From assembly GCF_003316695.1 (NCBI RefSeq), contig NZ_PDKB01000001.1, positions 62,001-126,000 on the forward strand: 64,000 bases of DNA. Direction: 5' to 3'. The notes under the pieces are model-generated. The model had not been told where the DNA came from. It saw only the letters and a list, made by a program, of their open reading frames with translations, and made no database searches. Position 1 is the stretch's first letter. Every line of letters starts with the position of its first letter. This document shows, in pieces, positions 2,729-31,645 of the stretch. A program made the translations under genes and the position numbers. Source of the stretch: Aliarcobacter vitoriensis. GTDB lineage: Bacteria > Campylobacterota > Campylobacteria > Campylobacterales > Arcobacteraceae.

Positions 2729-2731
2729 TTA

Positions 2732-4174
2732 TTATATATCCAAAGTAATGATTTTATCTTTTTTAATACCTAAATCTTCAGTCAAATATTTTATAATAGC
2801 TTCTTCTCTACCTAAAACGCTAATTATAATTTTATCGTATTGCATATTTACAAGATTTTTAGGATGATTCTTTTGATCAGACATATCTACAAAACCTACT
2901 ATTTTATCTGGTATTAAAACTTGTATAGTTTTACCAATAGTTCCATTACCATATATAATATATTTATTATTTGAGTTAAGAAATTCAACAATATTATTTA
3001 TTAGTGAGATAAAATCTTTTGGAATATCATTAAAAGTTTTAGATTTTGGGATTTCAATACTATCCCAACATTGTCTTATAATTTTAAAATCATCAAAAAT
3101 CTTTTCTAATCTATTTTTAAAATCATTAGATGTCCATTTTTGTAGTATCTTTTGTCCAGCTTTAATTTTATTTTCAACTTTATTTGGATTATTTAAAATA
3201 TTTAGTAAAGATTTTACTAATGAATTTGGATTTTTCAAATCCAATAAAAAAGCTGCATTTTTAACTTGCTTTCTAAGTCCTTTTAAATCAGAATAACAAA
3301 CAGGAATTCTATAATTAAAAGCTTCAAGAGGAGGTATATTTGTAGGACCAAAATATGTAGGCATTACTAAGGCTAAGGATTGTTTATATAGATTTGGTAT
3401 TTCATTATCTTCTACAAATCCTAAATATTTTATTTGCTTATCAATATTCATATTTTTAGCTTGTTCTAAAATATATGATAAATTTCCATAATCTGCACCA
3501 CTAAATAATGCAAAAATTTCTATATTAAATTTTTCTTTTAATATAGTTAAAGCTTTTAAAATATAAATATGGTTTTTATGAGACCAAAATTGTGCAGGAT
3601 AATATATATATGGTTTATCAAGATTATACTTTTTATTTATATCTATATATACATATTTTGTATCTACTCTTGGTAAAAATTTTAAAACATGTACTCTATT
3701 TTTATCTACACTATATCTTTTAGTGATATTCTTTTTACCATATTTTGAATCTGAAATAATAGCAATGGCTTTTTTTACTCCTACCCCACTATAAAAAAGT
3801 TCTCTCTTATCAAATTCATAGTTATTTCTTACTTCTGGAAATTCATTAAAATCTCTATGACACAAATCCCAAATAGTTAGAATATAGTGTAAATTTATAA
3901 AAGAAAAATGAGCTGGATATAAAAAATATGCTAAGTCTATTTTATAATTATGAATCAAAACATATTCTAAACTTTTTTCAGATAACAATTTTACATTTAC
4001 GTTATTTTTATTAAAATCATCTATAACACTATTATTTAATGTAAAAAAAATAAAATTATATTTATTTTTCATTTCTTGTAGTAATTGGCAAATTCTTAAT
4101 TCATACTGAAAACCACCACCAACTCTTTGTGCAGAATTCACAAAAATTCCTATATTTAATTTTTTATTATCCAT
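2732..4174 (-). CDS. GT4-type glycosyltransferase with extra C-terminal Rossmann-like domain
   Basis: About 480 residues. The body is a GT-B glycosyltransferase of the group 1/GT4 kind: YYPAQFWSHKNH is the start of the second Rossmann half, and MPTYFGPTNIPPLEAF is the usual donor-binding E-rich segment. After about residue 390 comes an added domain with IIYGNGTIGK and KIIISVLGREEAI, which resembles small NAD-binding-like domains found fused to sugar-cluster proteins. An ATG four codons upstream (4186) is possible, but a GGA lies about 7 bases before the chosen ATG. It overlaps the end of the upstream methyltransferase gene. Donor and acceptor cannot be told from the sequence; a GDP-sugar donor is plausible from the context. 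Confidence 0.85.
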   Translation of the reverse strand: MDNKKLNIGIFVNSAQRVGGGFQYELRICQLLQEMKNKYNFIFFTLNNSVIDDFNKNNVNVKLLSEKSLEYVLIHNYKIDLAYFLYPAHFSFINLHYILTIWDLCHRDFNEFPEVRNNYEFDKRELFYSGVGVKKAIAIISDSKYGKKNITKRYSVDKNRVHVLKFLPRVDTKYVYIDINKKYNLDKPYIYYPAQFWSHKNHIYILKALTILKEKFNIEIFALFSGADYGNLSYILEQAKNMNIDKQIKYLGFVEDNEIPNLYKQSLALVMPTYFGPTNIPPLEAFNYRIPVCYSDLKGLRKQVKNAAFLLDLKNPNSLVKSLLNILNNPNKVENKIKAGQKILQKWTSNDFKNRLEKIFDDFKIIRQCWDSIEIPKSKTFNDIPKDFISLINNIVEFLNSNNKYIIYGNGTIGKTIQVLIPDKIVGFVDMSDQKNHPKNLVNMQYDKIIISVLGREEAIIKYLTEDLGIKKDKIITLDI

Positions 4175-4914
4175 ACTACATTCCAACTACTAAAATCAGG
4201 TTTTTTATAACTTAGCCATTCATATTTATTTAAAATCTTAAATCCAATACTTTCACAAATAAACTCTAACTCTGTATCAAAAAAATATCTCATTTTATGT
4301 AACTCTTTTTTTTCAATAACTTCTTTTGTTTCTTTATTTTCTATAAAAATATCATAATTTACATCTACTATGTTTTTTTGAGCATTCAAAATTGGTTCAG
4401 CCAGTCGTGTAACTTTTATATTACCATTTTCTAATCTTTTTATCTTATTTGTTGGTAAATCTGTAAGGACAGCTGGTCCATACCAAAAATCAAATATAAA
4501 AATTCCACCATCTTTTAAATGTTTTTTAGCTACTTCAAAAGCTTTAAATAATTCATTATTTGAGTTTTGGTAACTCATTACATGAAACAGTGAAACAACA
4601 GCATCAAATTTTTTATCAAGATTCAATATTTGAATATTTGAATGAGAAAAACTCAATTTATTCTCTTTTCCAATTCTTCTATTTTCTGCAATTTTAAGCA
4701 TATCTTCACTTAAATCTATTCCATGAACAATATAACCTTTATTACAAAATAATTCAGCATGTTTTCCAGTACCACAACCCATATCAAGCAATGTGTTTAC
4801 ATTTTTATCATTAGCCTGTATCAAACTATTTATATAATCAACTTCTGCACTATAATCTTTATCGCTATAAAATAAATCATAATATTGTGAGTATAAATTT
4901 CCAAATTGGTTCAT
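4156..4914 (-). CDS. class I SAM-dependent methyltransferase
   Basis: This 252-residue protein carries the SAM-binding motif I LLDMGCGTGKH at residues 42-52. Post-motifs follow: GIDLSEDML (acidic end of beta 2), FDAVVSLFHVMSYQ (motif II) and LKDGGIFIFDFW (motif III). This is the standard small-molecule methyltransferase fold. Within a polysaccharide cluster, O- or N-methylation of a sugar is the likely role, but the substrate is not readable. Its start overlaps the stop of the aminotransferase gene by 4 bp (translational coupling), so it may act on the amino sugar made by that enzyme. Confidence 0.88.
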   Translation of the reverse strand: MNQFGNLYSQYYDLFYSDKDYSAEVDYINSLIQANDKNVNTLLDMGCGTGKHAELFCNKGYIVHGIDLSEDMLKIAENRRIGKENKLSFSHSNIQILNLDKKFDAVVSLFHVMSYQNSNNELFKAFEVAKKHLKDGGIFIFDFWYGPAVLTDLPTNKIKRLENGNIKVTRLAEPILNAQKNIVDVNYDIFIENKETKEVIEKKELHKMRYFFDTELEFICESIGFKILNKYEWLSYKKPDFSSWNVVWIIKN

Positions 4915-6032
4915 TGTAAAACCTCTCTTAAAGTTTTAGCTACTTCTTCTATTTGTTCTTTTGTAAGAGCTAAGCCACTAGGAATATAAAAACCTATTTC
5001 ATATAATTTTTCACTATTTGGTAAATGTTCATTTACAAACAATCCCATATTATTAAAAACTGGTTGTTTATGCATAGGATAAAAAAATGGTCTAGTTCCA
5101 ATTCCCTTTTTACTCAATTCTTGCATAATTTCTTTTACTGATTTTTTTACACTATCTTTTAGGGTAATTGCATATACCCAATATATATTTTCACAATATT
5201 GTGTTTGTGATATAGGAAGATTTATACTATCTATATCTTTGAGTAGTTTATTATACAAGTTTCCAATATATCTTTTTTTCTCTATTATTTCATCTATTTT
5301 TTCAAGTTGGGCTACACCTAAAGCTGCTTGTAAGTTTGTCATACGATAGTTCCAGCCTATTGATTCATGAATGAACCTTTTATTTGGATCTAGTGAAAAA
5401 CATAAATTTCTTAAAGATTTTGATTTTTCATATATGATTTTATCATCCATAAGTACCATTCCACCCTCTCCAGTAGTAATTTGCTTATTAGGATAAAAAC
5501 TAAAAATACTTACATCTCCAAAACTACCACATTTTTTACCTTTATACTCTTGTCCATGCATTTGAGCTGAATCTTCTATGATTTTTAAGTTATATTTCTT
5601 TGCAATCTCAATTACTATATCCATATCAACCGTTAGCCCATATAGATGTACAACCATAATTGCTTTCGTTTTTGGTGTAATTTTGGCTTCTATATCACTT
5701 GGATTTATGTTAAAAGTTGAAAAATCGCAATCAAGTAAAATAGGTGTCAAATCATTTGTAACCAAAGATTGAACACTTGATATAATAGTAAAAGAGGGAG
5801 CTATAACTTCATCACCTTTTTGTAAATTCAAGGCTCTTATGGCAATATCTAAAGCTGCACTTCCATTTGTACAAGCAACTCCATATTTTCGCCCAACATA
5901 ATTTGCCATTTCTTCTTCAAATTTTTTTATAAAAGGTCCTTCGCTACTTATCCAACCAGTATCTATACACTCATTAAGATATTTTTTTTCATTTCCATCA
6001 AGCAATGGTTCATTTACTGGTATAAAGCTCAT
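4911..6032 (-). CDS. DegT/DnrJ/EryC1 aminotransferase, GDP-perosamine synthase-like (Per/RfbE)
   Basis: This 373-residue protein is a PLP-dependent sugar aminotransferase. The cofactor lysine is K183 in FSFYPNKQITTGEGG and the pyridine-binding aspartate is D154 in IIEDSAQ. Several stretches recall the GDP-perosamine synthases Per/RfbE: IPVNEPLLDGNEKKYLNECI, then TGWISS at the start, and GTRPFFYPMH near residue 315. That enzyme aminates GDP-4-keto-6-deoxymannose at C4, the product of gmd in this same operon, so the assignment is chemically coherent. The exact sugar is inferred from resemblance and context; another 4-amino sugar is possible. Its stop lies 4 bp inside the following methyltransferase gene. 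Confidence 0.88.
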   Translation of the reverse strand: MSFIPVNEPLLDGNEKKYLNECIDTGWISSEGPFIKKFEEEMANYVGRKYGVACTNGSAALDIAIRALNLQKGDEVIAPSFTIISSVQSLVTNDLTPILLDCDFSTFNINPSDIEAKITPKTKAIMVVHLYGLTVDMDIVIEIAKKYNLKIIEDSAQMHGQEYKGKKCGSFGDVSIFSFYPNKQITTGEGGMVLMDDKIIYEKSKSLRNLCFSLDPNKRFIHESIGWNYRMTNLQAALGVAQLEKIDEIIEKKRYIGNLYNKLLKDIDSINLPISQTQYCENIYWVYAITLKDSVKKSVKEIMQELSKKGIGTRPFFYPMHKQPVFNNMGLFVNEHLPNSEKLYEIGFYIPSGLALTKEQIEEVAKTLREVLQ

Positions 6033-6461: not shown

Positions 6462-7307
6462 TTAAAGCTTTTCTATTTTCTTTGTATCTGTATTATAAAC
6501 AGTAAATCCTTTTATCTCTTCATAGGCTTGTGATTTATTCAAGAAATTTAAATTACCATTCATATCTCTTGATTCTCTAAATTTTGATAAAATATATCCA
6601 TCTTTTAATGATACTTCTTTAATTTTTGAATTCATTTTATCTTTTCTTATAAAATATGCATTATTCCCAGCTTTATTACAACCTATAAAAATAAATCCTT
6701 TTTTATATGCTAAAGAGTGCAAAGATTTAAGAGAAGCCCCAAAATATAAATTACTGTAATGAGCTTTTGTTCTATTAAAATCTTCTCTATAAGGTACTGA
6801 AATCTCTTTATCAATACCAAATAAGCTATTGTATTCTAAAATAAGTATATTTGGATTTAGACAATTAATTTCATCAAAAATATAGTAGTCATTTCCATCT
6901 AAATCGATATGAAGCAATCCAATATTGGGGTTTATATTTTGTTCTAATAATAAAGAATTTATATTGTCTTTTGTTATAAACACATCTTTTGCGTTTAGAT
7001 TATATTTCCAAAAATAATCTTGTTTTTTAAGATTTTTTATATTATCACTTGAACCATCCATAACAAAACCACTCCAGTTATTATTAAACATAAGAAATTT
7101 TGTATTTGCTTCTTTATAATTTTCCACTCCAAATTCAACAAAAAATTCATTATCTATTTCTATATTATTTATAAGCCATTGTATTATCCCATCATCTCCA
7201 AATTGTGAAAATATTTTAAATTCAACATCTTTTAATGAAGATAACCCTTTACTTAATATTTGATTTACCAAAATTTTACCAAATAATACTTTTTCATCAT
7301 TTGTCAT
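6462..7307 (-). CDS. FkbM-like (putative methyltransferase) protein
   Basis: A 281-residue protein of uncertain function. FFVEFGVENY near residue 55, NWSGFVMDGS near 80 and GLLHIDLDGNDYYIF near 130 follow the pattern of FkbM-related proteins found in glycan loci. In these the first motif takes the place of the usual SAM-binding loop and the DLDGND acidic patch is conserved. A strong ribosome-binding site (aaggag) precedes the chosen ATG. I cannot name the substrate, and a non-methyltransferase role is possible. Confidence 0.6.
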   Translation of the reverse strand: MTNDEKVLFGKILVNQILSKGLSSLKDVEFKIFSQFGDDGIIQWLINNIEIDNEFFVEFGVENYKEANTKFLMFNNNWSGFVMDGSSDNIKNLKKQDYFWKYNLNAKDVFITKDNINSLLLEQNINPNIGLLHIDLDGNDYYIFDEINCLNPNILILEYNSLFGIDKEISVPYREDFNRTKAHYSNLYFGASLKSLHSLAYKKGFIFIGCNKAGNNAYFIRKDKMNSKIKEVSLKDGYILSKFRESRDMNGNLNFLNKSQAYEEIKGFTVYNTDTKKIEKL

Positions 7308-9760: not shown

Positions 9761-10897
9761 TCAAGCTCCAAAAAATTTATAAATAACATCGACTATATGT
9801 TTTATATCTTTATTTTCTAATCCATAATACATAGGCAATCTAATCAATCTTTCACTCTCCTTAGTTGTATAAATATCTTTTCCACTAAATCTACTAAATT
9901 TTAATCCAGCTTCAGCACTATGAAGTGGTACATAATGAAATACTGCATAAATATCATTTCCTTTCAAATATTCTAATAAAACTGACCTCTCTTCCAAATC
10001 TTTTACTTTTATGTAAAACATATGGGCATTTTGTACACATCCATCTGGGATTTTTGGAAGTTCTATAAAACCTCTATTTTCAAGCTCTTTTAGCCCATCA
10101 TAATACTTTTGCCAACTATTTAATCTATTTTGATTTATCTCATTGGCTTTTTCTAAATTTCCCCAAAGATATGCTGCACTTACATCATTCATAAGATAGC
10201 TACTACCCAAATCTACCCAAGAGTATTTATCGACCATTCCCCTAAAAAATTGGCTTCTATTTGTCCCTTTTTCTCTTATGATTTCAGCTCTTTGTATAAA
10301 ATTTTTGTCATTTATTATTAAAAGTCCACCCTCTCCTGCACTTGTATAATTTTTTGTTTCATGAAAACTAAAAGCCCCAAGATGTCCAATAGTACCTAAA
10401 GCTTTTCCTTTATAGCTACTCATCATACCTTGAGCTGCATCTTCAACTACAAAAAGATTATATTTTTTTGCTATATCCATAATAGTATCCATCGCACAAG
10501 CAACTCCTGCATAATGAACTGGAACTATAACTTTTGTTTTAGAAGTAATTGCTTCTTCTATTTTTGCCTCATCTATATTCATAGTATCAGGTCTTATATC
10601 TACAAAAACTATTTTTGCACCTCTTAGTACAAAAGCATTTGCAGTAGATACAAAAGTATATGAAGGTATAATTACTTCATCACCTTCTTTTATATCTAGT
10701 AAGATTGCAGCCATCTCAAGTGCATGTGTACAAGATGGAGTAAGAAAAGCTTTTTTACATTGTAGTTTTTCTTCAAACCATTTGTGACATTTTAAAGTAA
10801 ATTCTCCCTCTCCTGAGATTTTACTACTTTTTATAGACTCTAAAATATATTTTTCTTCGTTACCTGTAAATGGTGGTTTATTAAATGATATTAACAA
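9761..10897 (-). CDS. wecE: dTDP-4-amino-4,6-dideoxygalactose transaminase
   Basis: This DegT-family aminotransferase closely follows E. coli WecE (RffA). Shared segments include LTPSCTHALEMAAILLDI, IPSYTFVSTANAFVLRGAKI, KGTNRSQFFRG and DGCVQNAHMFYIK. The PLP lysine lies in FSFHETKNYT (about residue 182). WecE aminates dTDP-4-keto-6-deoxyglucose to dTDP-Fuc4N. I chose the TTG at 10897 because it gives MLISFNKPPF, which aligns with the start of WecE, and has AAAGGA about 6 bases before it. An in-frame ATG at 10927 would add ten residues inside the upstream gene. Its substrate genes rmlA/rmlB survive here only as fragments at 8179-8405, so they must be elsewhere if the enzyme works. Confidence 0.93.
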   Translation of the reverse strand: MLISFNKPPFTGNEEKYILESIKSSKISGEGEFTLKCHKWFEEKLQCKKAFLTPSCTHALEMAAILLDIKEGDEVIIPSYTFVSTANAFVLRGAKIVFVDIRPDTMNIDEAKIEEAITSKTKVIVPVHYAGVACAMDTIMDIAKKYNLFVVEDAAQGMMSSYKGKALGTIGHLGAFSFHETKNYTSAGEGGLLIINDKNFIQRAEIIREKGTNRSQFFRGMVDKYSWVDLGSSYLMNDVSAAYLWGNLEKANEINQNRLNSWQKYYDGLKELENRGFIELPKIPDGCVQNAHMFYIKVKDLEERSVLLEYLKGNDIYAVFHYVPLHSAEAGLKFSRFSGKDIYTTKESERLIRLPMYYGLENKDIKHIVDVIYKFFGA

Positions 10898-10899
10898 AG

Positions 10900-11541
10900 T
10901 TATTCCTTTAAATATTTTTTTAAACAAACTGTTTCAAAAGTAGAATATTTTTTTCTGTCTATACATTCAAACCAAATGTCTTCTTGTTCTTCAATATATT
11001 TAATTTTTTCTAAAAATTCTTTATTATGAAACTCTTTTGGTATTACTACAACTCCTGTATCATCACAAACAGCAATGGCATTATCATAAAAGTTTTTTCT
11101 TAATTGTATTTGCTTTAGTTGGTACTTGTTTTTTTGTATATTTTCATTTGAATAACCCACGGGACAGAAACCTTTACACCATATTTTCCAGTTTTCTTTG
11201 ATGAGTCGAGGAGCATCTCTTAATAAGCCATTTGTTACTATTGCACCAGCTTGCTTATATAATAATAAATATTTTGAAACTAAATCTCCAAAAACTGCTT
11301 TATCTTCATTATCAATTATATCTATAAAGACAATATCATTATCTTGTATATTTTGTATTTGTTCATGAACATCCCAATTTGTACCATTACAAGCATGCAC
11401 ATAGAAAAGATTACCTACTGCAAAATGTCCTTTATTAACTGAATTTGTATTTAATATAGCACCAGATTTTTCTAAACAATCTGAAATTTCAGTAGTAGAA
11501 ACTCTATTTCTTTTAATGAAATCTATAATATTTCTTTTCAT
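10900..11541 (-). CDS. RraA-like / class II aldolase-type family protein
   Basis: About 213 residues from the ATG at 11541; an in-frame ATG at 11613 would add 24 residues but lies deep in the preceding gene. The motifs NGLLRDAPRL and CDDTGVVVIPKEF match the RraA / 4-hydroxy-4-methyl-2-oxoglutarate aldolase-like family (GxxRD and DxxGVVVVP). Members are metal-dependent aldolases/decarboxylases of 2-oxoacids or the RNase E inhibitor RraA. Here it sits between a methyltransferase and wecE, so a carbon-chemistry role in making a sugar or sugar substituent is more likely than RNase control. The reaction is not known. Confidence 0.75.
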   Translation of the reverse strand: MKRNIIDFIKRNRVSTTEISDCLEKSGAILNTNSVNKGHFAVGNLFYVHACNGTNWDVHEQIQNIQDNDIVFIDIIDNEDKAVFGDLVSKYLLLYKQAGAIVTNGLLRDAPRLIKENWKIWCKGFCPVGYSNENIQKNKYQLKQIQLRKNFYDNAIAVCDDTGVVVIPKEFHNKEFLEKIKYIEEQEDIWFECIDRKKYSTFETVCLKKYLKE

Positions 11542-12205
11542 TCTTAAACCTTGTAAAAATAGTATCTTCTTTTTCAAAACTTTGGTCTTTGAAAATAAAA
11601 ACAGAAAACTCAAATGGCATATAATTATTTTTTAGTATAACATTTTTACTTAACTTATATGCCATATCCAAAATTCTTAATGGGTCACTATGAAATGTGT
11701 GTTCATATTGAAAATCTACTTTATTTGATAAAAAATCAAAAGCAATTCCATCTTTTGAAAGTTCAAAGGCTTTCTTCATAAAAGCTTCAATAAATTGGTA
11801 GTTGTTATAATCTAAAAGTTTAAAATTAAAAACACCAGATGCAACGATAATATCAAATGGTTTATTCAGTGATACTTTTAAAAAATCATCTAAAATGAAA
11901 TTTATATTATTTTCATTTTTGTAAATTTTTTTAGCCTCATTTATTAAATCTTCTACAATATCTATTCCTAAATATTTATAATCCTTTGTTTTTTGGCTAA
12001 TTAATTTATTTGCATCTCCAAAACCACATCCAATATCCAAAATTGATTTATTCTCTAAATTAAACTCTTCAAATAGAATATGGTATCTTAAGTCTTGTTT
12101 CCCTTTATCCCAACCTAAAGCTTTTGGTGAATATCCAAATTCTTTATATCTTTTAGAATATCTATCTACTACAATTTTTTTGTCAGTTTCTGGCATATTT
12201 AACAT
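11513..12205 (-). CDS. class I SAM-dependent methyltransferase
   Basis: A 230-residue protein with motif I SILDIGCGFGDANKL near residues 54-68, YLGIDIVEDLI as the beta-2 acidic end and FDIIVASGVFNFK as motif II. The first residues could start at the ATG at 12205 or at an in-frame ATG three codons later. It abuts the amidohydrolase gene and overlaps the RraA-like gene by 29 bp (from the chosen start), so it is part of a tightly packed sub-operon (10900-15842). The substrate is unknown. Confidence 0.85.
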   Translation of the reverse strand: MLNMPETDKKIVVDRYSKRYKEFGYSPKALGWDKGKQDLRYHILFEEFNLENKSILDIGCGFGDANKLISQKTKDYKYLGIDIVEDLINEAKKIYKNENNINFILDDFLKVSLNKPFDIIVASGVFNFKLLDYNNYQFIEAFMKKAFELSKDGIAFDFLSNKVDFQYEHTFHSDPLRILDMAYKLSKNVILKNNYMPFEFSVFIFKDQSFEKEDTIFTRFKNEKKYYRFH

Positions 12206-12949
12206 TTATTTAATCTCCAAAAACTTTTTATAATTTAATTTTTGAATTAATTCAGAATCATTTTTATTTAATGCTTTTTTTATAACTTCATCATAGCAAG
12301 ATTTCATATATTTAATTCTAAATTCTGGGTAATCAGAACCAAACAAAATTCTATTTTCATTAAATTTAAAAAATTTAATGAAATCAACCCAAATAGAGGA
12401 GTCTTTTAAATATGCTAAAGAAAAAGAAAAATCATAATAAATATTCTTTAAATCTCTTGTATAAAGCATATATTCTAATACTTTATGTCCTCCACCATGA
12501 GCTAATAATACTTTTATATTACTAAACTTTTTTGCAATATATATTGATAACTCTAAATTAATATGATTTACTAAATTTGAACCATAATAAAAACAATCAA
12601 TTATAATAAATGAAAATTTTAAACTTTGCATCTTATTGTATATATTTTTAAAATTATTAACTGTAATATTTGACAATCTTGGATGAAGCTTAATACCTAA
12701 TTTTATATTTTTTGAAACCAGTAAATCAGTAATTTCAGAATCAAATAATTTATAATTTAAAGCAATGGCAGACAATGGATAATTTTCACTAAAATCATTC
12801 AAAAAAAATTTTAAAAATAACTGTTTTTCTTTATTTGTATTTAAAATAAGTATAAATCCCTCTAACTTACTAACTACTTCTTTAAAATCATTTATAATAT
12901 CACTTACTTTCATATTAAAATGGATATGTGAATCAAAAATTTTACTCAT
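12206..12949 (-). CDS. amidohydrolase-superfamily (TIM-barrel) metal hydrolase
   Basis: The 247-residue protein has the markers of the amidohydrolase-2 group. DSHIHF at residues 7-12 is the first metal-binding HxH. GIKLHPR lies near residue 85, VLLAHGGGHKVLEY near 150 carries a histidine ligand, and ILFGSDYPEFR near 208 carries the conserved aspartate. Such enzymes hydrolyse or decarboxylate small substrates. The gene abuts the methyltransferase and overlaps the ATP-grasp gene by 8 bp. Its role in a glycan locus is not established; removing or installing an amide-linked substituent is conceivable. Confidence 0.8.
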   Translation of the reverse strand: MSKIFDSHIHFNMKVSDIINDFKEVVSKLEGFILILNTNKEKQLFLKFFLNDFSENYPLSAIALNYKLFDSEITDLLVSKNIKLGIKLHPRLSNITVNNFKNIYNKMQSLKFSFIIIDCFYYGSNLVNHINLELSIYIAKKFSNIKVLLAHGGGHKVLEYMLYTRDLKNIYYDFSFSLAYLKDSSIWVDFIKFFKFNENRILFGSDYPEFRIKYMKSCYDEVIKKALNKNDSELIQKLNYKKFLEIK

Positions 12950-14123
12950 ATTCTAAATATACCTTTTCATCAACTTCTTTTATTAATTTTTGTAAATCTT
13001 TTTCTTTTTTATGATAGGCTATAAAGTACCCAATACGGCTTCTATCATCATTTGGAGAGTTTATTATATCTCCAACTTGAAATTCAAAATCAAAATCTAT
13101 AATATTAGGATTATCTTTTAAAAAATCTATTCCATTAATTTTTTTTACTTTACCAATTTCAAAATCAAAAAACCTAAGAACAGCACAATTTTTATTTTTA
13201 TTTAAATCAACACTTAAATTAGTCTCACCTAAAGCTGATTTAATAAGTAATTCATTAACATCAACGCCTGAAACAGTTGGGATGATATGTGAAGATATTT
13301 TAGTTCCACCACCTCTAATTGCAGCCTCTATCAGATAAAACTTATTATTCCAATATTTATATTCAACATGTGTAATTCCAAAAGCTAACTTTTCAAATAA
13401 TTTATTATTAATTTTTTCAATTTCTTTTTGATTAAATTCTTCAAACTTAGTTTGATAAATTAATGACTTTGCAACATTAGGAAGATTTTTATAATGTTCT
13501 TTTTTTGAAATAGCTAATGTATAATGTTTTTTATTTGTTTTAAAACCTTCAACGGTAAGTTCAAATCCACCGATAAATTCTTCCACTAGTATAGTATTAT
13601 CTACAGAATATTCCATTGTATAATTAAATCTTTCTTTTAATTCATTGATAGAAGTTATTTTATAAACACCTCGACTCGACTGATTTGATAATGGCTTAAT
13701 AATAGCATCTGAGTCTAATGTTACAAAAAAACTTATAGCTTCATCAATTGTTTTACATTTTTTATATTTTGGATGAAAAAGATTTGCAATAATTAATTCT
13801 TTTCTCATTCTAGATTTATTTGTATAAAGATTAGCTACATCCATTCCTACACCATTTAAATCAAGTTTTTCTGATATATAAGCCACTGTATTAACAGCTA
13901 TATCACTTTGATCAGTAATTACAGCATCAATTTTTTCATCTATTGCTATTTGCAAATTTTTTTCTCTATCTAATACATTTTCAACATATGATTTATCAGC
14001 ATATTCAAAACCAATAGAATCTTTATAAAGATTTGAACAAATCGAATAATGTCCTAAATATTTTGTTTTTTGAATTACAGGGACTTGCCATTTACCTCCA
14101 CCTATAATTAAGATCTTTTTCAT
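12942..14123 (-). CDS. ATP-grasp ligase
   Basis: About 393 residues. It begins MKKILIIGGGKWQVPVIQK (pre-ATP-grasp Rossmann) and contains YTNKSRMRKEL, IIKPLSNQSSRGV (ATP lysine and the flexible loop) and VEEFIGGFELTVEGF. The metal/ATP site is FYLIEAAIRGGGTKISSHI. This is the CarB/PurK-like ATP-grasp fold used to join a carboxylate to an amine. I chose the ATG at 14123 because AGG precedes it by about 8 bases; an ATG at 14144 would overlap the PhyH gene. In this context it may couple an acid to an amino sugar such as Fuc4N or perosamine, which is inference. Confidence 0.85.
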   Translation of the reverse strand: MKKILIIGGGKWQVPVIQKTKYLGHYSICSNLYKDSIGFEYADKSYVENVLDREKNLQIAIDEKIDAVITDQSDIAVNTVAYISEKLDLNGVGMDVANLYTNKSRMRKELIIANLFHPKYKKCKTIDEAISFFVTLDSDAIIKPLSNQSSRGVYKITSINELKERFNYTMEYSVDNTILVEEFIGGFELTVEGFKTNKKHYTLAISKKEHYKNLPNVAKSLIYQTKFEEFNQKEIEKINNKLFEKLAFGITHVEYKYWNNKFYLIEAAIRGGGTKISSHIIPTVSGVDVNELLIKSALGETNLSVDLNKNKNCAVLRFFDFEIGKVKKINGIDFLKDNPNIIDFDFEFQVGDIINSPNDDRSRIGYFIAYHKKEKDLQKLIKEVDEKVYLEYE

Positions 14124-14127
14124 TAAT

Positions 14128-14925
14128 TTACCTAATATAAACATTTGTCATATCATACTGCCCACTTTTAAATTTTCTTATATTCCCAGGCTCTCTAAAT
14201 TCTAAATAATTTTGACAAATTCTTACATCCCAACCTAATCGTTGCTTAACTAATTCTGAAGCCATATTTAACATGTCTCCTGAACTATTTATAAAATCTA
14301 TTTGTTGCTTAAATGGTGCTAATGTGTACTTTATAACAATCATGGGTCTTGAAATATTAGTTTTATTTATACCAGCTCTATGCCATAATGATGCATCCAC
14401 AACAAATGCTTCACCAGCTTTTCCATAAGTTGATACATAATGAGCTTGCATAAACTCTTCAGATGGCATTTTCTCAAATAAATGTGTAGAAGGCACATAT
14501 TCTGTAGATCCATTTATATTTGAATAATCAACTAATGGTATCATTACTATTACACTTGTTCTTGTATCTTTAAAAAATGGTTGATCTCTATGAAACTGAT
14601 ATCCTATCATATCAGAATGAATTTCATGATTTATAATAGCATTATATGAATGAACTACTGCCTTATCATTCAATATAGAATTTATATAAGTGTTTAAAAC
14701 TTTATTTTCTAATAATTCATAATATTTACCACCAAATCTTCCCAAATCTCTAATAACTTCATAATCAAATTTTAATAAATGTTCTTTGCCAAATTTTTCT
14801 ATATCTTCCTGTTTTTTTCTCTCTAAATCACTTTTGTATTTAGATATTTCATCATCTGTTAAAAATTTGCCAAGTAATGTAACACCATAAATATTCATTT
14901 CTTCTATGGCTTTTTTGATATTCAT
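14128..14925 (-). CDS. phytanoyl-CoA dioxygenase (PhyH)-family oxygenase
   Basis: A 265-residue protein of the PhyH type of non-heme Fe(II)/2-oxoglutarate dioxygenases. The HxD iron ligands are in YQFHRDQPFF near residue 115. The distal histidine is probably in SLWHRAGIN near residue 182, followed by the basic residue of the SRPMIVIKY strand (2-oxoglutarate binding). The segment NGSTEYVPSTHLF is typical of the family. It would hydroxylate a small acid or a sugar-bound group. It is two bases from the propeller protein and four from the ATP-grasp gene, so it belongs to the same functional set. Confidence 0.85.
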   Translation of the reverse strand: MNIKKAIEEMNIYGVTLLGKFLTDDEISKYKSDLERKKQEDIEKFGKEHLLKFDYEVIRDLGRFGGKYYELLENKVLNTYINSILNDKAVVHSYNAIINHEIHSDMIGYQFHRDQPFFKDTRTSVIVMIPLVDYSNINGSTEYVPSTHLFEKMPSEEFMQAHYVSTYGKAGEAFVVDASLWHRAGINKTNISRPMIVIKYTLAPFKQQIDFINSSGDMLNMASELVKQRLGWDVRICQNYLEFREPGNIRKFKSGQYDMTNVYIR

Positions 14926-14927
14926 AT

Positions 14928-15842
14928 TTATTCCTCAACTTTATTCGTCATTACTGCTAAACCTATTCCACTTTTTCCGAAACCATTGCCGTTATACATC
15001 ATATATCGTTTATTATCATAATCAAATACGTACCCATATTCTATCATTTCACTATCCCAGCCTTTACTAGATACATTAATTCCTACTTTTTTATCCATTC
15101 TAGACCATTCTAGACCATCATATGATTCTGCATAACCAATTTTATAATATTTTCCTCTATATGAATACCACATTTTATAAATACCATTTTCATAAATGAC
15201 CATTGGCTTTGCAATAGTATATTCTTTTTCATCATTAAAATCGATAGCAATAATCCCTTCTCTCTTCCAATTTATTCCATCTAGGGATGTAGCATACTTA
15301 ATATGGTAATAGTGTAAAGGTTTGTCATTTTCTTCCCATCTATCAAAAGAGGTATACCACATTTTCCAAAGTTTACCTTCTTTTATTACACAACAAGATC
15401 CACTACAAATTGGTTCAGTGTTTATTCTATCGATTATAGGTACATTTAATAATCTTTCAAATTTTTTTATTTCAATATTATATTTAGCTAATCCAATATG
15501 AGTCCAGAAACCACCTATACCACCTTGAGTCCATCCGACATAGTATAGTAATAGCTCATTTCCATTTCTTACAATCCAAGGATATGAAACTCCGTTTTCA
15601 TCAAAATATCCTATTTTTCCAATATCAAATACTGGATCCTTTGAAATATGTAACACTTTTCTTAAATCTGATTTATCTAAAATGGCATATCCTATTCTAG
15701 AAATACCATTTTTATCTCTACCAACAAAATATAATTTAATTTCATCATTATAAATATCAACAAAAGTAGGTCCTCCATAGTGAGATAACCACCAAATACT
15801 TTCATCTGGTTTAATAATTAATCCTAGCTTTTCCCAATTCAT
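14928..15842 (-). CDS. five-bladed beta-propeller glycosidase-like protein
   Basis: A 304-residue protein with repeated propeller-blade signatures: KLYFVGRDKNG, LLLYYVGWTQG, WKMWYTSFDRW, YKMWYSYRGKY and RYMMYNGNG. SLDGINWKR and SYDGLEWSR are SxDGxxW turns. This is the pattern of GH43/GH32/GH130-like proteins. No signal peptide is visible, so it would act in the cytoplasm, which is unusual for a hydrolase. A phosphorylase, a sugar-binding or a non-catalytic role is possible. It is the most promoter-proximal member of the 10900-15842 cassette. Confidence 0.7.
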   Translation of the reverse strand: MNWEKLGLIIKPDESIWWLSHYGGPTFVDIYNDEIKLYFVGRDKNGISRIGYAILDKSDLRKVLHISKDPVFDIGKIGYFDENGVSYPWIVRNGNELLLYYVGWTQGGIGGFWTHIGLAKYNIEIKKFERLLNVPIIDRINTEPICSGSCCVIKEGKLWKMWYTSFDRWEENDKPLHYYHIKYATSLDGINWKREGIIAIDFNDEKEYTIAKPMVIYENGIYKMWYSYRGKYYKIGYAESYDGLEWSRMDKKVGINVSSKGWDSEMIEYGYVFDYDNKRYMMYNGNGFGKSGIGLAVMTNKVEE

Positions 15843-15884: not shown

Positions 15885-16898
15885 TTAAATTTTAAAAATT
15901 ATTTCAAGTTGTGCTTTTAAATTAGATTCTGAATAATATTCCTTAATTTTTTGTATATTATTGTATATTACTTGTTCATCTAAAATTTCAAGGTTAATAC
16001 TTGCTATATCAAAAACTTGTACATTAATATTTTTGAAATGTTCCCAAGATGTAATATCATTTTTTATATAAACTTTCTTACCTAAACCTAAAAGAGTAAT
16101 TATATTTCCTATTGCTTGTTGCCTATTGTGGGCAAATATAGCTATATCTATGCTGTTTAAAAACTTATGATATTCTTCAATTAACATAAATTCTGTAAGA
16201 GGAATAAATTTATCTTTAAAAAGATTTTGACCTTTCATTATTATTTGATTAGCATATTTTTTATCCCCATAGGATAGTGGAGCAAATATCTTTATGTTTT
16301 CATTTTTAAATGGTAGAAGTTTCTTTAATACTTCATAATGATTATTTGTAGGATCTGCTGAATTCCCTAATTGTATATTTATAGTATTATGTTTTTTTAT
16401 TTCTATATTGTAATTTTTATATAAATTACTCGGATAAGCATAACAATGTATATTATAACCTTTAGCTTTGTAATATTTTTTTATATAAAGGCTATCTCCC
16501 ACAACACCAGTAATATAATTTCCTATATTTTTTATAATTTGATGCTGTATTTTACTTTTTGTTTCAGGAAAGTAAAAATCCCCTCCCCATGTAATCCAGT
16601 AACATTTTTTTAATAATTCTTGATTAAAATATAAAAGTACATTAACTTTATCTCTCCAAAGACCATGAAGAATTATCTTTTTTGCCATTTTCATATATTC
16701 TAACAAAGTTATAAATATATCATCATCTGTATGTAAAAATTCGACTTTATGCTCAGGAGTTAATCTGTAATCATATTTTTCACTTGTAATAAACACATAG
16801 TGGTGATTCTCTCTTCCAAAATGCTCATCTACAAAATCTATAAATGGAGCTAAAAATTTATCAAGAATCATCACATGTAGTATTTTGTGTTCACTCAT
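15885..16898 (-). CDS. wecF: 4-acetamido-4,6-dideoxygalactose (Fuc4NAc) transferase-like, GT56
   Basis: The 337-residue protein resembles enterobacterial WecF (GT56), which adds Fuc4NAc from its dTDP form to a lipid-linked glycan. Matching features are the HGLWRDKVNVLL segment, YWITWGGDFYFP near residue 120, INIQLGNSADPTNNHYEVL near 191 and the C-terminal FAHNRQQAIGNIITLLGLG. Its presence with wecE in one operon supports a Fuc4N-type residue in the glycan. No separate wecD N-acetyltransferase was seen in the window. The start ATG overlaps the stop of the upstream unknown gene by 4 bp. Confidence 0.82.
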   Translation of the reverse strand: MSEHKILHVMILDKFLAPFIDFVDEHFGRENHHYVFITSEKYDYRLTPEHKVEFLHTDDDIFITLLEYMKMAKKIILHGLWRDKVNVLLYFNQELLKKCYWITWGGDFYFPETKSKIQHQIIKNIGNYITGVVGDSLYIKKYYKAKGYNIHCYAYPSNLYKNYNIEIKKHNTINIQLGNSADPTNNHYEVLKKLLPFKNENIKIFAPLSYGDKKYANQIIMKGQNLFKDKFIPLTEFMLIEEYHKFLNSIDIAIFAHNRQQAIGNIITLLGLGKKVYIKNDITSWEHFKNINVQVFDIASINLEILDEQVIYNNIQKIKEYYSESNLKAQLEIIFKI

Positions 16899-17920
16899 TT
16901 TTGTACTTCTATAGATTTTTTTACTCTATTTATAACTTCTTTAAAATAATTATGATTTTTATGACCTAATTTTAAATGATAATAAATATAAGCTATTCTA
17001 GTAGATTCATCTAAATTAAAATCTATATCTATACTATATTTTTGACTAGCTGATTTAAAACTTATTGCATTAAAACTATTTCCATATTTATTTATATCAT
17101 CTTTATTGAAACCAAGATATTCAAGATTATCTATTAGTTTTTGAAAGTATGTTTTGTTTTGGTTTTCAAATTCTCGCAAAGTAAGATTTTCATCTCTACT
17201 AAGCCCTAAAGTTAATATTAAAATATCATTTGATTTATATCTTAAAAGATTCATAATAGGCATTTCAAATATATCTTTAAATGTTTTTTCATAATTACTT
17301 AAATACACTTCTAAATTCTCAAAAATATCTTTTATATCTTTTAACTCAAGTAATTCTAAATTACTATTTTTAAACTTCTCTTTTATCTCTTTAATTGAAT
17401 TTTTATCAAAATATAAAGCTTTAAAATCATACTCAGGAAAATCATTCATAATTTGATTTATGTATTCTACAAACTCCTCATCTTCCAAATTCTCCTTTGT
17501 TGCTAAAAATCCTATACTATTTGGCTTGTACATACTTTTTAGCTCTTCACTTATTGTCTCATTTAAACTATGCATAAATTTTGCTTCATTAAATTTTTCA
17601 TGATTTTTATCTATCAAAGTATAAGGAGAGTTTAAAAGTTCATCTTGTGTATCATGATTTTTAAAAGATATTGTAGATTTTTGACCTATATATTTTGATG
17701 GTAAATTGTAATTAAAAGCTTGATTTTCTACATCATACATATCATCTATTTTTTCTATAGACTCATTTGCTATAATTGTATCTATTGGTTTATCATCTAA
17801 ATAAACATCTATTTTTTGTGTTTCACTATTTCCTATTTTTTTTGCAAAACCAAAAAATGAAAAATAATCTTTATTATGAACTACACCATAAGTTTTACCA
17901 ATTTGTATAGGGCTAGCCAT
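16895..17920 (-). CDS. unknown protein coupled to Maf
   Basis: A 341-residue protein I do not recognise. The first 100 residues (IGKTYGVVHNKDYFSFFGFA, then DVYLDDKPIDT) read like a beta-rich domain. The remainder is mixed alpha/beta with many lysines and acidic residues, no membrane segment and no known catalytic motif. It shares one base with the stop/start of the maf gene upstream and overlaps wecF by 4 bp, so it is translationally coupled to two glycosyltransferases. An accessory or substrate-binding role in glycosylation is a guess from position. Confidence 0.75.
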   Translation of the reverse strand: MASPIQIGKTYGVVHNKDYFSFFGFAKKIGNSETQKIDVYLDDKPIDTIIANESIEKIDDMYDVENQAFNYNLPSKYIGQKSTISFKNHDTQDELLNSPYTLIDKNHEKFNEAKFMHSLNETISEELKSMYKPNSIGFLATKENLEDEEFVEYINQIMNDFPEYDFKALYFDKNSIKEIKEKFKNSNLELLELKDIKDIFENLEVYLSNYEKTFKDIFEMPIMNLLRYKSNDILILTLGLSRDENLTLREFENQNKTYFQKLIDNLEYLGFNKDDINKYGNSFNAISFKSASQKYSIDIDFNLDESTRIAYIYYHLKLGHKNHNYFKEVINRVKKSIEVQK

Positions 17921-19910: not shown

Positions 19911-21107
19911 TTGCAAATACTTAATATATTGAAACTAATCGGCAGAACAAAAGAACTTTTCTATGAAGATATAAACAATCATGAAAAAGAACTCTCAAAA
20001 ATAGTATCAAATTCAACTTTTTTAGTTATTGGAGGAGCTGGTTCAATAGGACAAGCCGTAACTAAAGAGATATTTAAAAGAAACCCTAAAAAACTTCATG
20101 TAGTAGATATTAGTGAAAATAATATGGTAGAGCTAGTTAGAGATATTAGAAGTAGTTTTGGATATATAGATGGGGATTTTCAAACTTTTGCACTTGATAT
20201 AGGAAGTAGCGAATATGATGCTTTTATAAAAGCTGATGGAAAGTATGATTATGTTTTAAATCTATCTGCACTTAAACATGTAAGGAGTGAAAAGGATCCA
20301 TTTACTCTTATGAGAATGATTGAAACAAATATTTTTAATACTGATAAAACTCTTCAACAATCAATAGAAAATGGGGTTAAAAAATATTTTTGTGTAAGTA
20401 CAGATAAAGCTGCAAACCCAGTGAATATGATGGGGGCAAGTAAAAGAATCATGGAAATGTTTGTGAACAGACATTCAAAACAAATAGATGTTTCTATGGC
20501 AAGATTTGCAAATGTTGCTTTTTCTGATGGTTCACTTCTTCATGGATTTGATCAAAGAATAAAAAAATCTCAACCAATAGTTGCTCCAAATGATATAAAA
20601 AGATATTTTGTAACTCCACAAGAAAGTGGTGAACTTTGTCTTATGTCTTGTATATTTGGTGAAAATAGAGATATTTTTTTCCCAAAACTAAGTGAAAATT
20701 TACATCTTATAACATTTTGCGAAATAGCTGTAAGATATTTAAAAAATCTTGGATATGAGCCATATTTATGTAAAGATGAAGATGAAGCTAGAGAATTAGC
20801 AAAAACTTTACCACAAGAAGGAAAATATCCTTGCTTATTTACATCAAGTGATACAACAGGCGAAAAAGATTTTGAAGAATTTTTTACCCATAAAGAAGTT
20901 TTAGATATGGAAAAATTTGAAAATCTAGGTATTATTAAAAATGAAGCCATTTATGATGAAAAGCTTTTAAATGAGTTTGAAAATATAATCAAAACTTATA
21001 AACAAAATTTACAATGGAGCAAAGATGATATTGTAAAAGAGTTTTTTAAACTAATACCAGATTTTGGACATAAAGAGACTGGAAAATATTTAGATTCAAA
21101 GATGTAA
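19911..21107 (+). CDS. legB: nucleotide-GlcNAc 4,6-dehydratase of the legionaminic acid pathway
   Basis: This 398-residue CapD/FlaA1-type dehydratase carries out the first committed step to legionaminic acid; in Campylobacter the substrate is GDP-GlcNAc. The Rossmann motif VIGGAGSIGQAV is near residue 39, ALKHVRSEKDP near 125, and the active-site segment STDKAANPVNMMGASKR has methionine where classical SDRs have tyrosine, as in PglF/FlaA1. The start is TTG at 19911 with AGGAGAG about 8 bases upstream. Upstream neighbour maf is divergent; legC follows after one base. Confidence 0.92.
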   Translation: MQILNILKLIGRTKELFYEDINNHEKELSKIVSNSTFLVIGGAGSIGQAVTKEIFKRNPKKLHVVDISENNMVELVRDIRSSFGYIDGDFQTFALDIGSSEYDAFIKADGKYDYVLNLSALKHVRSEKDPFTLMRMIETNIFNTDKTLQQSIENGVKKYFCVSTDKAANPVNMMGASKRIMEMFVNRHSKQIDVSMARFANVAFSDGSLLHGFDQRIKKSQPIVAPNDIKRYFVTPQESGELCLMSCIFGENRDIFFPKLSENLHLITFCEIAVRYLKNLGYEPYLCKDEDEARELAKTLPQEGKYPCLFTSSDTTGEKDFEEFFTHKEVLDMEKFENLGIIKNEAIYDEKLLNEFENIIKTYKQNLQWSKDDIVKEFFKLIPDFGHKETGKYLDSKM

Positions 21108-21108
21108 T

Positions 21109-22245
21109 ATGAAAAATATAATAGATTTTATAAAACAAACTTTTAAAACTGAAGAGTTTATACCTCTTCATGAACCACGATTTATTGGAAATGAGAAAAA
21201 ATATTTAAATGAGTGCATAGATAGTACATTTGTATCAAGTGTAGGAAAATATGTAGATAGATTTGAAAAAGATTTTGCATCATATGTTGGAGCTAAATAT
21301 GCAATAGCAACTGTAAATGGTACAGCAGCACTTCATATATCTTTGATATTGTCAAATGTTCAAAGAGATGATGAAGTTATCACTCAACCTCTTACTTTTA
21401 TCGCAACTTGCAATGCTATAAGCTATATTGGTGCAAAACCTGTATTTGTTGATGTGGATTTAGATACTTTAGGACTTAGTCCAAAATCACTAAAAAACTT
21501 TTTAGAAACAAATTGTGAGATAATAGAGAATATTTGTATAAATAAAATTACAAAAAGACAAATAAAAGCTTGTGTTCCTATGCATACTTTTGGACATCCG
21601 TGCAAAATAGATGAGATAAAAAATATTTGTGATAGGTGGAAAATTACTTTAGTTGAAGATGCAGCTGAAAGTTTAGGCTCGTTTTATAAAGATAAACATA
21701 CTGGAACTTTTGGAAAAATTGGGGCATTTAGTTTTAATGGAAATAAGATAATCACAAGTGGTGGTGGTGGAGTTATCGTAACTGATGATGAAGGTTTGGC
21801 TAAAAGAGCAAAGCATATCACAACAACAGCAAAAATTCCTCATCCATATGAGTATGTACACGACGAAACAGCATATAACTATCGGCTTCCAAACTTAAAT
21901 GCTGCACTTTTGGTAGCTCAAATGGAAAATTTAGATAAATTTTTAGCAAATAAAAGAGAGTTAGCAACTATTTATAAAGATTTTTTTGAAACTAAAAATG
22001 TAAAATTTGTAGAAGAACCTCAAAATTCAAACTCAAACTATTGGTTACAAGCTATAATTTTTGATGATGTTAAGCAAAGAGATGAATTTTTAGAGTTTTC
22101 AAATAAAAATAAAGTTATGACAAGACCTATTTGGAAACTTATGAATGAACTTGAAATGTACAAAAATTGCCAAAAAGATGATTTGAAAAATGCGAAATAT
22201 CTTGAAGAAAGAGTTGTAAATATTCCTAGTTCGGTGATTTTGTAA
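21109..22245 (+). CDS. legC: legionaminic acid pathway aminotransferase
   Basis: The 378-residue PLP aminotransferase has K213 in FSFNGNKIITSGGGG and D184 in LVEDAAE, and it belongs to the DegT family. In the leg pathway it aminates the 4-keto sugar made by LegB. The start HEPRFIGNEKKYLNECID and the VSSVGKYVDRFE segment are typical of LegC/PglE-like proteins. The stop overlaps the legH start by one base, and it follows legB by one base, so the first three steps are translated together. Confidence 0.93.
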   Translation: MKNIIDFIKQTFKTEEFIPLHEPRFIGNEKKYLNECIDSTFVSSVGKYVDRFEKDFASYVGAKYAIATVNGTAALHISLILSNVQRDDEVITQPLTFIATCNAISYIGAKPVFVDVDLDTLGLSPKSLKNFLETNCEIIENICINKITKRQIKACVPMHTFGHPCKIDEIKNICDRWKITLVEDAAESLGSFYKDKHTGTFGKIGAFSFNGNKIITSGGGGVIVTDDEGLAKRAKHITTTAKIPHPYEYVHDETAYNYRLPNLNAALLVAQMENLDKFLANKRELATIYKDFFETKNVKFVEEPQNSNSNYWLQAIIFDDVKQRDEFLEFSNKNKVMTRPIWKLMNELEMYKNCQKDDLKNAKYLEERVVNIPSSVIL

Positions 22246-22820
22246 TGAAAGAAAAAATTGTTCTTGTTGGTGGTGGTGGGCATTGTCATAGTGTTATTGA
22301 TGTTATTGAACAAGAGAACAAATACGAAATTATAGGAATAGTTGATATAAAAGAGAATATTGGAAAAAAAGTATTAGATTATGAAATAATTGCTTGTGAT
22401 GATGATTTGGAAAAGCTTTTTAAAAATTGTGAAAATGCTATTATTACAATAGGACATATAAAATCGAATAGTTTAAGAGTAAAACTTTTTGAAAAGCTTA
22501 AAAATATAGGTTTTAATTTACCAACCATTATTTCTCCACTTGCTTATGTCTCAAAATATTCTAAAATAGATGAAGGAACAGTTATTATGCATAATGTACT
22601 TGTAAATGCAAATTCAAAAATAGGTAAAAACTGTATAATAAACACAAAAGCTTTAATAGAACATGATTGTATAGTAGAAGATAATTGTCATATTTCAACT
22701 GCAAGTGTAATAAATGGTGGAGTTATTGTAAAAGAGAATACATTTTTTGGAAGTAATGCTACATCAAAACAAGAAGCTATAATATATAGCTTTATAAAAG
22801 CAGGGAGTTTAGTAAAATGA
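22245..22820 (+). CDS. legH: sugar O/N-acyltransferase of the leg pathway (PglD/NeuD-like)
   Basis: A 191-residue two-domain acyltransferase. The N-terminal nucleotide-sugar-binding Rossmann part starts VLVGGGGHCHSVIDVI, and the C-terminal left-handed beta-helix has hexapeptide turns with the base histidine in LIEHDCIVEDNCHIST. It is the expected acetyltransferase that N-acetylates the C4 amino group made by LegC. The C-terminus (AGSLVK) is slightly short compared with PglD. It overlaps legI by 4 bp. Confidence 0.9.
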   Translation: MKEKIVLVGGGGHCHSVIDVIEQENKYEIIGIVDIKENIGKKVLDYEIIACDDDLEKLFKNCENAIITIGHIKSNSLRVKLFEKLKNIGFNLPTIISPLAYVSKYSKIDEGTVIMHNVLVNANSKIGKNCIINTKALIEHDCIVEDNCHISTASVINGGVIVKENTFFGSNATSKQEAIIYSFIKAGSLVK

Positions 22821-24966: not shown

Positions 24967-24967
24967 T

Positions 24968-26020: not shown

Positions 26021-26046
26021 TTAATATATAACAAGGAGAATTAAAT

Positions 26047-27150: not shown

Positions 27151-27171
27151 TTTTAAAGTGAGTCTAAATAA

Positions 27172-31616: not shown

Positions 31617-31645
31617 AATAAAACTGGAAATAACCCAGTTTTATT
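31617..31645. terminator. bidirectional terminator between maf and flagellin
   Basis: An 11-bp perfect inverted repeat, AATAAAACTGG (31617-31627) against CCAGTTTTATT (31635-31645), with a 7-base loop. A- and T-rich flanks let it serve both the plus-strand leg operon and the minus-strand flagellin gene. The stem includes the flagellin stop codon. Confidence 0.8.

Follow-up and report, generated by a model that had tools for sequence, protein, structure and literature searches.

The window analysed here is a stretch of 64,000 nucleotides from Aliarcobacter vitoriensis (contig 11 of genome G000, positions 62001-126000), in which six tightly packed genes, for an RraA-like protein, a methyltransferase, an amidohydrolase, an ATP-grasp ligase, a PhyH-type oxygenase and a propeller-like protein, are flanked by wecE and wecF within a flagellar glycosylation island. 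We consider it probable that they form an exchangeable N-acyl cassette, in which an acid made by a pyruvate aldol reaction is methylated and ligated to the 4-amino group of deoxythymidine diphosphate (dTDP)-4-amino-4,6-dideoxygalactose (dTDP-Fuc4N). The proposal draws on the genes with their order and families, the active-site residues, the pairing of RraA with ATP-grasp genes, the sugar context, the exchange of content in the slot beside wecE and the lack of a WecD match in the genome, all of which were observed directly. A preliminary description of the window had listed the six open reading frames (ORFs) with WecE on one side and a WecF-like protein on the other; all are present on the minus strand, with coordinates and families borne out and two starts corrected:

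9761..10927, minus strand: WecE-type dTDP-4-amino-4,6-dideoxygalactose transaminase, expected to yield a free 4-amino group (TIGR02379 677 bits, cut-off 434.85)
10900..11541, minus strand: RraA-like class II pyruvate aldolase candidate (PF03737 64.8 bits, cut-off 24.5)
11513..12205, minus strand: class I S-adenosylmethionine (SAM)-dependent methyltransferase (PF13649 46.2 bits, PF13847 45.8 bits)
12206..12949, minus strand: candidate metal hydrolase/cyclase of the amidohydrolase superfamily (Amidohydro_2 PF04909 33.0 bits)
12942..14123, minus strand: ATP-grasp carboxylate-amine ligase with an L-amino acid ligase C-terminal domain, putative (ATP-grasp_4 PF13535 45.2 bits, LAL_C2 PF18603 42.6 bits, both over cut-off)
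14128..14925, minus strand: PhyH-type Fe(II)/2-oxoglutarate oxygenase, accessory (PF05721 58.9 bits)
14928..15842, minus strand: propeller-like protein resembling beta-1,2-mannoside phosphorylase, accessory (NF052550 47.8 bits, cut-off 450)
15885..16898, minus strand: WecF-like Fuc4N transferase (PF07429 77.5 bits, over cut-off; NF002756 380 bits, under its cut-off of 457)
16895..17920, minus strand: conserved protein (HYP) of 341 residues between wecF and maf, no Pfam family; copies 51-80% identical at the same position in L109, L114 and L020
17920..19797, minus strand: Maf flagellin glycosyltransferase (PF20157, PF01973)

Along the minus strand the order is Maf, HYP, WecF, propeller, PhyH, ATP-grasp, amidohydrolase, methyltransferase, RraA-like and WecE. 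Counted from the propeller gene towards wecE with the corrected starts, the spacings are 2, 4, -8, 0, -29 and -28 bases, and 42 bases separate the propeller gene from wecF. The RraA-like start was moved from 11613 to 11541, the most likely position, because relatives begin there; the ATP-grasp gene more likely starts at 14123 than at 14144. A promoter and terminator scan was uninformative (102 promoter-like sites versus 94.7 in shuffles, one terminator-like site versus 2.0).

Relatives were collected in one genome_contigs scan with five RraA sequences, in which neighbouring genes played no part in the selection. The scan yielded 50 loci (L-numbers denote fetched contigs or loci, G-numbers genomes) from Campylobacterota, Bacillota, Bacteroidota, Planctomycetota, Pseudomonadota, Myxococcota, Nitrospirota, Hydrogenedentota, Melainabacteria and an ANME-2 archaeon, with one titled Deltaproteobacteria; since it relies on two short peptide patterns, the true spread of this RraA is larger. 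L066 and L067, from two genomes, encode identical RraA proteins and were both counted, and L069 is the same contig as L027 (G356). Tables of 55 rows additionally hold L018, L019 and L020 (from the ATP-grasp search), L130 (from the wecE search) and A. vitoriensis itself, five rows that are omitted from all figures given out of 50. When all ORFs were searched by profile, 48 of the 50 loci had a member of the ATP-grasp family no more than 3 kb from RraA; amidohydrolase members turned up in 26, methyltransferase members in 19, PhyH members in three and a propeller protein in one. The six genes, initially treated as a set, are thereby ruled out as the conserved unit, which is RraA plus ATP-grasp, often with amidohydrolase and methyltransferase; PhyH and the propeller protein are accessory. 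The two loci lacking ATP-grasp are L055, a contig of 3.7 kb, and L036, of 15.3 kb; in L065 and L068 the ATP-grasp gene is on the strand opposite to RraA. As a control, the ATP-grasp profile matched four of 25 RraA-less wecE loci at 208, 186, 183 and 31 bits, compared with 288-542 bits in the RraA loci (165 in the truncated L069). Within the order, which belongs to Campylobacterota, five of 298 genomes, A. vitoriensis included, carry the RraA subfamily, and in four of these (its own, G003, G112 and G135) an ATP-grasp gene of at least 52% identity adjoins it, so that the pairing goes beyond chance; the fifth, G356, has a relative of 36% identity at a contig end. Among 150 relatives, an ATP-grasp gene of at least 52% identity is present in the same four genomes.

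Gene order varies around this core. The cassette lies between wecF and wecE in A. vitoriensis, L019, L020, L028 and L130. In G135, WecF is followed by one other gene and then by ATP-grasp, amidohydrolase, RraA and WecE; G003 (L020) has WecF, four other genes, an ATP-grasp/methyltransferase ORF, RraA and WecE; G367 (L130) has ATP-grasp, methyltransferase, RraA and WecE; and Sulfurimonas L028 has WecF, ATP-grasp, amidohydrolase, methyltransferase, RraA and WecE, without PhyH or propeller. In G112 (L018) the order is ATP-grasp, amidohydrolase, RraA, three other genes and WecE, the three being a GmrSD-like gene, an AAA-ATPase gene and one unassigned ORF (11627-14768). L020 additionally carries a gene for an HpcH/HpaI-type aldolase (6529-7302; 27.6 bits, cut-off 25), with wecF on one side and the ATP-grasp/methyltransferase ORF on the other, so that this slot also houses an aldolase of another family. 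A radical-SAM/SPASM family gene stands near RraA in four loci (L035, L039, L044 and L047).

The residues of the RraA-like protein suggest a candidate pyruvate aldolase of the kind acting on 4-hydroxy-4-methyl-2-oxoglutarate (HMG) and 4-carboxy-4-hydroxy-2-oxoadipate (CHA), with aldol activity predicted. Counted along the alignment with HMG/CHA aldolase 3noj, N71, R123, D124 and G144 are kept and Lys replaces R40. The Arg-Asp pair (R123 and D124 of 3noj) is present in all 54 rows that reach the column, and all 55 rows keep both N and W of the NW motif. HMG/CHA-type aldolases are said to have a D-X20-R-D spacing, reportedly described by Mazurkewich in 2014; here the spacing is D/E-X21-R-D in 50 of the 55 rows. 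The cut-offs of the curated HMG/CHA-type equivalogs were missed (NF006731, 43.9 bits versus 179; TIGR02798, 37.5 versus 304.5). In a study of HMG/CHA aldolase, R123 is essential, and R40, N71 and G144 are among the variants measured (PMC5065237).

The ATP-grasp protein, with PDB matches to 4dim, BacD and BL00235, is a putative carboxylate-amine ligase resembling L-amino acid ligases, and amide formation is predicted for it. It is fused with the methyltransferase in a single ORF in L020 and L043, of 626 residues in G003 (L020). In the fold search O-, N- and C-methyltransferases all scored within about Z 2.5, which does not single out a target atom for the methyltransferase. For the amidohydrolase model (predicted local distance difference test score, pLDDT, 94.4), the best fold matches were two uncharacterised proteins (3cjp, Z 19.0; 3irs, Z 18.4), followed by COG3618 proteins, LigI-type lactonases and TatD nucleases at about 17.5 and dihydroorotases at about 16; examples are the 2-pyrone-4,6-dicarboxylate hydrolase 4di8 (Z 17.5, root-mean-square deviation 3.2, 226 aligned), the TatD-type 6l25 (17.6) and the dihydroorotase 6l0a (16.2), with the lactonase, COG3618, TatD and dihydroorotase rows together spanning Z 15.6-17.8. 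In 29 whole amidohydrolase ORFs, H10 is conserved in 90%, and H151 and D206 in all 29. The model has the superfamily fold together with these His and Asp residues, the expected metal ligands. LigI and HMG/CHA aldolase belong to one catabolic route, and the LigI-type likeness of the fold is suggestive only. PhyH shows an H-x-D ... H pattern, presumably the motif of Fe(II)/2-oxoglutarate oxygenases; relatives with 56-58% identity occur in L056 and L059, two Bacteroidota RraA/ATP-grasp loci, and in L058 both a PhyH (28%) and a propeller protein (44%) stand beside RraA and ATP-grasp. The propeller gene gave no Pfam match over cut-off, and its PDB matches were the beta-1,2-mannoside phosphorylase chains 9fj8 and 7fip.

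The slot beside wecE exchanges its content. Two loci of the same genus, L109 (G016) and L114 (G029), share the frame of A. vitoriensis (identities of 82% and 56% for Maf, 80% and 73% for HYP, 56% and 54% for WecF, 85% and 79% for WecE), and L114 also carries the next A. vitoriensis genes, GT2 through GMD. In both, WbqC and two radical-SAM genes occupy the space between wecF and wecE (L109 9291-11796; L114 5571-8085), a second, unexplained acyl cassette. A wecE survey found 30 places in 28 of 200 genomes, of which 26 were fetched afresh (L108-L133). Of the 25 RraA-less wecE loci, 21 have a WbqC, formyltransferase, hexapeptide or GNAT enzyme at most five genes from wecE, a partly circular figure that becomes 14 of 18 once the seven loci from which the query enzymes came are removed, and several of the loci are closely related to one another (L121, L124-L126; three from genome G072). 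L117 and L128 have a divergent ATP-grasp near wecE, and in L129 and L132 nothing was recognised. Among the RraA loci, 14 that have a WecE-type gene were compared (L130 and 13 others; L051, with WecE 7 kb from RraA, was excluded), and one of them has such an enzyme within five genes (L018, hexapeptide, 42 and 36 bits); the queries stem from this order and may miss distant homologues, and within Campylobacterota the RraA side reads one of six. The hexapeptide gene of A. vitoriensis is 12 genes from wecE. WecD gave no match in the A. vitoriensis genome at E 0.01, in a search that matched 10 of 14 control genomes, one of them over cut-off; RmlB and RmlA are present over cut-off on contig 64. Because the slot swaps, WecD is unmatched and RmlA and RmlB are present, the cassette occupies the place expected for an N-acylating enzyme. 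In L117 (9718-10896; same place in L021), the divergent ATP-grasp (28% identity) directly precedes a 75% identical WecE without RraA, and is perhaps a simpler amino-acid ligase variant.

Most of the loci also hold genes for amino sugars. A DegT aminotransferase (over 200 bits with the WecE profile) was found in the stretch read for 37 of the 50 loci, a figure without a background rate for DegT; homologues scattered and never near amino-sugar genes, which would have spoken against the cassette, were thus not what we saw. Constant company of wecE and wecF, which the preliminary description had raised as a point to check, did not hold up: a DegT at least 49% identical to WecE occurs in 10 loci and WecF in four. 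A NeuB/PseI-family gene occurs in 13, with representatives of neighbouring families over cut-off as PseB, PseI and PseG, and a PIG-L deacetylase family in eight, with GNAT families in several; these families are clusters named from one or two representatives. The WecE-type and NeuB/PseI groups share one locus (L031), and roughly half of the loci fall outside both. There are hence at least two kinds of sugar locus in which the module works, and a deacetylase could free the amine in the pseudaminic kind. A class I pyridoxal phosphate (PLP) aminotransferase family, present in 13 loci, suggests that a keto acid is turned into an amino acid in some species. In L035, L039, L043, L062, L063, L069 and L076, pseudaminic-type clusters combine RraA, ATP-grasp, methyltransferase and amidohydrolase with PIG-L and GNAT genes, possibly for a re-acylated nonulosonic acid; in the stretch read, L069 and L076 are without some of the Pse genes.

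An RraA tree of 54 rows (L077, cut at its contig end, excluded) was computed by a quick method and has 19 weak branches among 50 inner ones. Mapped on it, the three labels of sugar context need 11 changes (mean of shuffles 22.9), and phylum 14 changes for ten phyla (minimum possible nine); a stronger grouping by context than by phylum was not upheld, as phylum clusters too. Campylobacterota are split. The A. vitoriensis clade has six rows (99% in the SH-like approximate likelihood-ratio test, SH-aLRT) and is joined by Paenibacillus, Cohnella, Thermincola and two Melainabacteria rows (11 rows, 95%); a pseudaminic clade (98%) unites Sulfuricurvum L062, Sulfurimonas L076 and L069 with one row from a planctomycete and one from a flavobacterium. 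Read simply, this pattern points to transfer between phyla. An origin from phage or plasmid was rejected: in 50,697 phage and 72,556 plasmid records RraA had no match, nor any relative in one viral_contigs scan, and PhyH had no phage match. ATP-grasp alone is not specific, matching 114 plasmid records, all below 60% identity and 36 of them over 80% of its length.

From these observations we infer the reactions, their order and the attachment point of the product as follows. RmlA and RmlB, encoded elsewhere in the genome, and WecE would provide dTDP-Fuc4N with its free 4-amino group. The RraA-like enzyme would make a small acid by a pyruvate aldol reaction, to which the methyltransferase may add methyl on the carbon adjoining the keto group, or on O or N, and the amidohydrolase may open or close a lactone or lactam ring. 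The ATP-grasp enzyme would then convert a carboxylate group of this acid to an acyl phosphate and couple it to the 4-amino group as an amide, replacing WecD; in the A. vitoriensis strain, PhyH may hydroxylate the acyl group, and WecF would transfer the decorated Fuc4N. Synthesis of an acid by the cassette and its coupling to the amino group of the 4-amino sugar had been suggested before; with the co-travelling core, the aldolase residues, the missing WecD match and the slot swaps this stands as the best reading, the chemistry and the attached sugar being the conditional part of it.

A known substituent offers a chemical parallel. Vio, 4-amino-4,6-dideoxyglucose, is the C4 epimer of Fuc4N, and HMG corresponds to two pyruvates. 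By our derivation, a 2,4-dihydroxy-3,3,4-trimethylpyroglutamoyl group is, with its ring opened, the 5-amide of 4-hydroxy-3,3,4-trimethyl-2-oxoglutarate, that is, HMG with two methyl groups next to the ketone. Exactly this group is given on Vio for Vibrio anguillarum V-123 in a table entry (PMC10609480). The substituent would fit the chemistry of an aldolase, a methyltransferase, a ring-closing amidohydrolase and an amide ligase, by analogy of structure; the fit leaves the source of the ring nitrogen unexplained, and the cassette could make other acids. Masses worked out by hand for the amide on the amino sugar are +158.02 for HMG, +172.04 and +186.05 for HMG bearing one or two C-methyl groups, and +185.07 for the trimethyl-dihydroxypyroglutamoyl group, with another +15.99 expected from PhyH, compared with +42.01 for acetyl and +27.99 for formyl. 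Speculatively, and with rather low expectation that it holds in full, this may be extended to a general pyruvate-aldolase acyl route, in which an enzyme of the HMG/CHA kind, borrowed from catabolism, runs in the synthetic direction, the full form of four genes equips 4-amino sugars with 2,4-dihydroxy-3,3,4-trimethylpyroglutamoyl or a group much like it, and the decoration is exchanged between phyla on Fuc4N- and pseudaminic-type sugars.

Several points weigh against the N-acyl cassette. HMG/CHA aldolase is described as cleaving (PMC5065237), so that synthesis would need a pull. None of the RraA, ATP-grasp, amidohydrolase and methyltransferase proteins reaches a curated NCBIfam cut-off for any function. 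The RraA of L036 stands without any other cassette gene in its 15.3 kb, and 13 of the 50 loci have no DegT in the stretch read, many contigs being short. With the amidohydrolase and methyltransferase each missing from many loci, the product must vary between them. RraA and ATP-grasp distances correlate with r 0.73 over 51 loci (maximum of 1000 permutations 0.21), which counts for the proposal but would also be produced by shared descent or joint transfer, not only by functional coupling; for amidohydrolase and RraA the correlation is 0.22, from a 12-residue amidohydrolase stretch. Finally, the legionaminic- and perosamine-type genes of the island mean that another amine could be acylated. These and the remaining island features, the first two entries labelled from their family order, are:

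209-6032: perosamine-type set, including DegT at 4911-6032
19911-29541: legionaminic-acid-type operon
29576-31612, plus strand: second Maf glycosyltransferase
31641-32546 and 32707-33612: two flagellins

The second Maf and both flagellins lie 14-18 kb from the cassette and count in favour of the proposal.

That the same acyl group goes to one of these other amines, a perosamine-type sugar or a nonulosonic acid, we think improbable. The NeuB/PseI-family genes of the survey, and the PIG-L family that could free an amine, speak for it; the five loci with the cassette flanked by wecF and wecE speak against it, as do L114, where the same perosamine-type genes accompany a different slot content, and L109, which shares the Maf-HYP-WecF-WecE frame. 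We give a similarly small chance to a second alternative, in which the RraA-like protein is a non-synthetic decarboxylase or retro-aldolase and what the ATP-grasp enzyme puts on the sugar is simply a common amino acid or a short peptide. Oxaloacetate decarboxylation is a further activity of HMG/CHA aldolases (PMC5065237), the ATP-grasp protein carries the L-amino acid ligase C-terminal domain, the class I aminotransferases could convert a keto acid to an amino acid, and flagellin sugars bearing amino acids are known (PMC5207245); a common amino acid substrate hardly explains the near-obligate pairing of RraA and ATP-grasp, however. It is very unlikely that the genes make a small molecule or modify something other than the glycan, their place in the island being accidental: the propeller and PhyH proteins are without assigned role, some loci lack DegT and direct evidence was not found, but sugar aminotransferases accompany the genes across many phyla, and the slot is swapped for other likely N-acylating enzymes. 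A true RraA regulating RNase E, with which the protein shares its Pfam family, is ruled out for practical purposes by the score against the RraA equivalog NF006875 (21.1 bits, cut-off 136) and the conserved aldolase Arg-Asp.

Preferring the N-acyl cassette, we compared it with known systems. LigI, LigJ and LigK form a catabolic set; the RraA-like family resembles HMG/CHA aldolase (3noj, LigK kind) in the active-site residues kept, and the amidohydrolase fold resembles LigI-type lactonases, as well as TatD and dihydroorotase, whereas the cassette RraA differs in its place in a glycan locus with ATP-grasp and often methyltransferase, in its spacing and in reaching no NCBIfam cut-off. The Fuc4N pathway of enterobacterial common antigen (WecE-WecD-WecF) is matched by WecE over cut-off, a WecF-like transferase, RmlA and RmlB; in A. 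vitoriensis, unlike there, acetylation is apparently replaced and the genes lie in a flagellar island with Maf. WbqC, formyltransferase, GNAT and hexapeptide enzymes by WecE share the slot but comprise one to three genes of other families, presumably for another acyl group. The V-123 group is likewise on a 4-amino-4,6-dideoxyhexose, although on Vio instead of Fuc4N, the likeness being one of structure. The flagellin of Clostridioides difficile type B bears peptidylamido-Fuc3N, again a flagellar amino sugar with an unusual amide-linked acyl cap and with a putative D-alanine ligase gene in the locus; the cap differs, being Taurine-Ala-Gly on Fuc3N, and the portion of the paper seen does not mention an RraA-like aldolase (PMC5207245).

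The antigenic identity of many bacterial amino sugars is set by their N-acyl groups, and to our knowledge the genes for the elaborate ones are mostly unassigned. The cassette is a testable gene set with predicted chemistry and natural swap pairs, sharing flanks with other content, in one genus. If the proposal is true, an aldolase family of aromatic catabolism works in glycan decoration, part of glycan chemistry becomes readable from genomes in several phyla, and the flagellum probably gets a chemically unusual coat. In the portions consulted of the open-access literature, including PMC3210612, PMC2824669 and PMC13317340, such a cassette was not found described, and a term search of a V. anguillarum O-antigen paper (PMC10059132) gave no match. 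Fuc4N itself is stated in PMC13317340 to be previously unreported in flagellar glycans, and is predicted there for two strains of C. butyricum.

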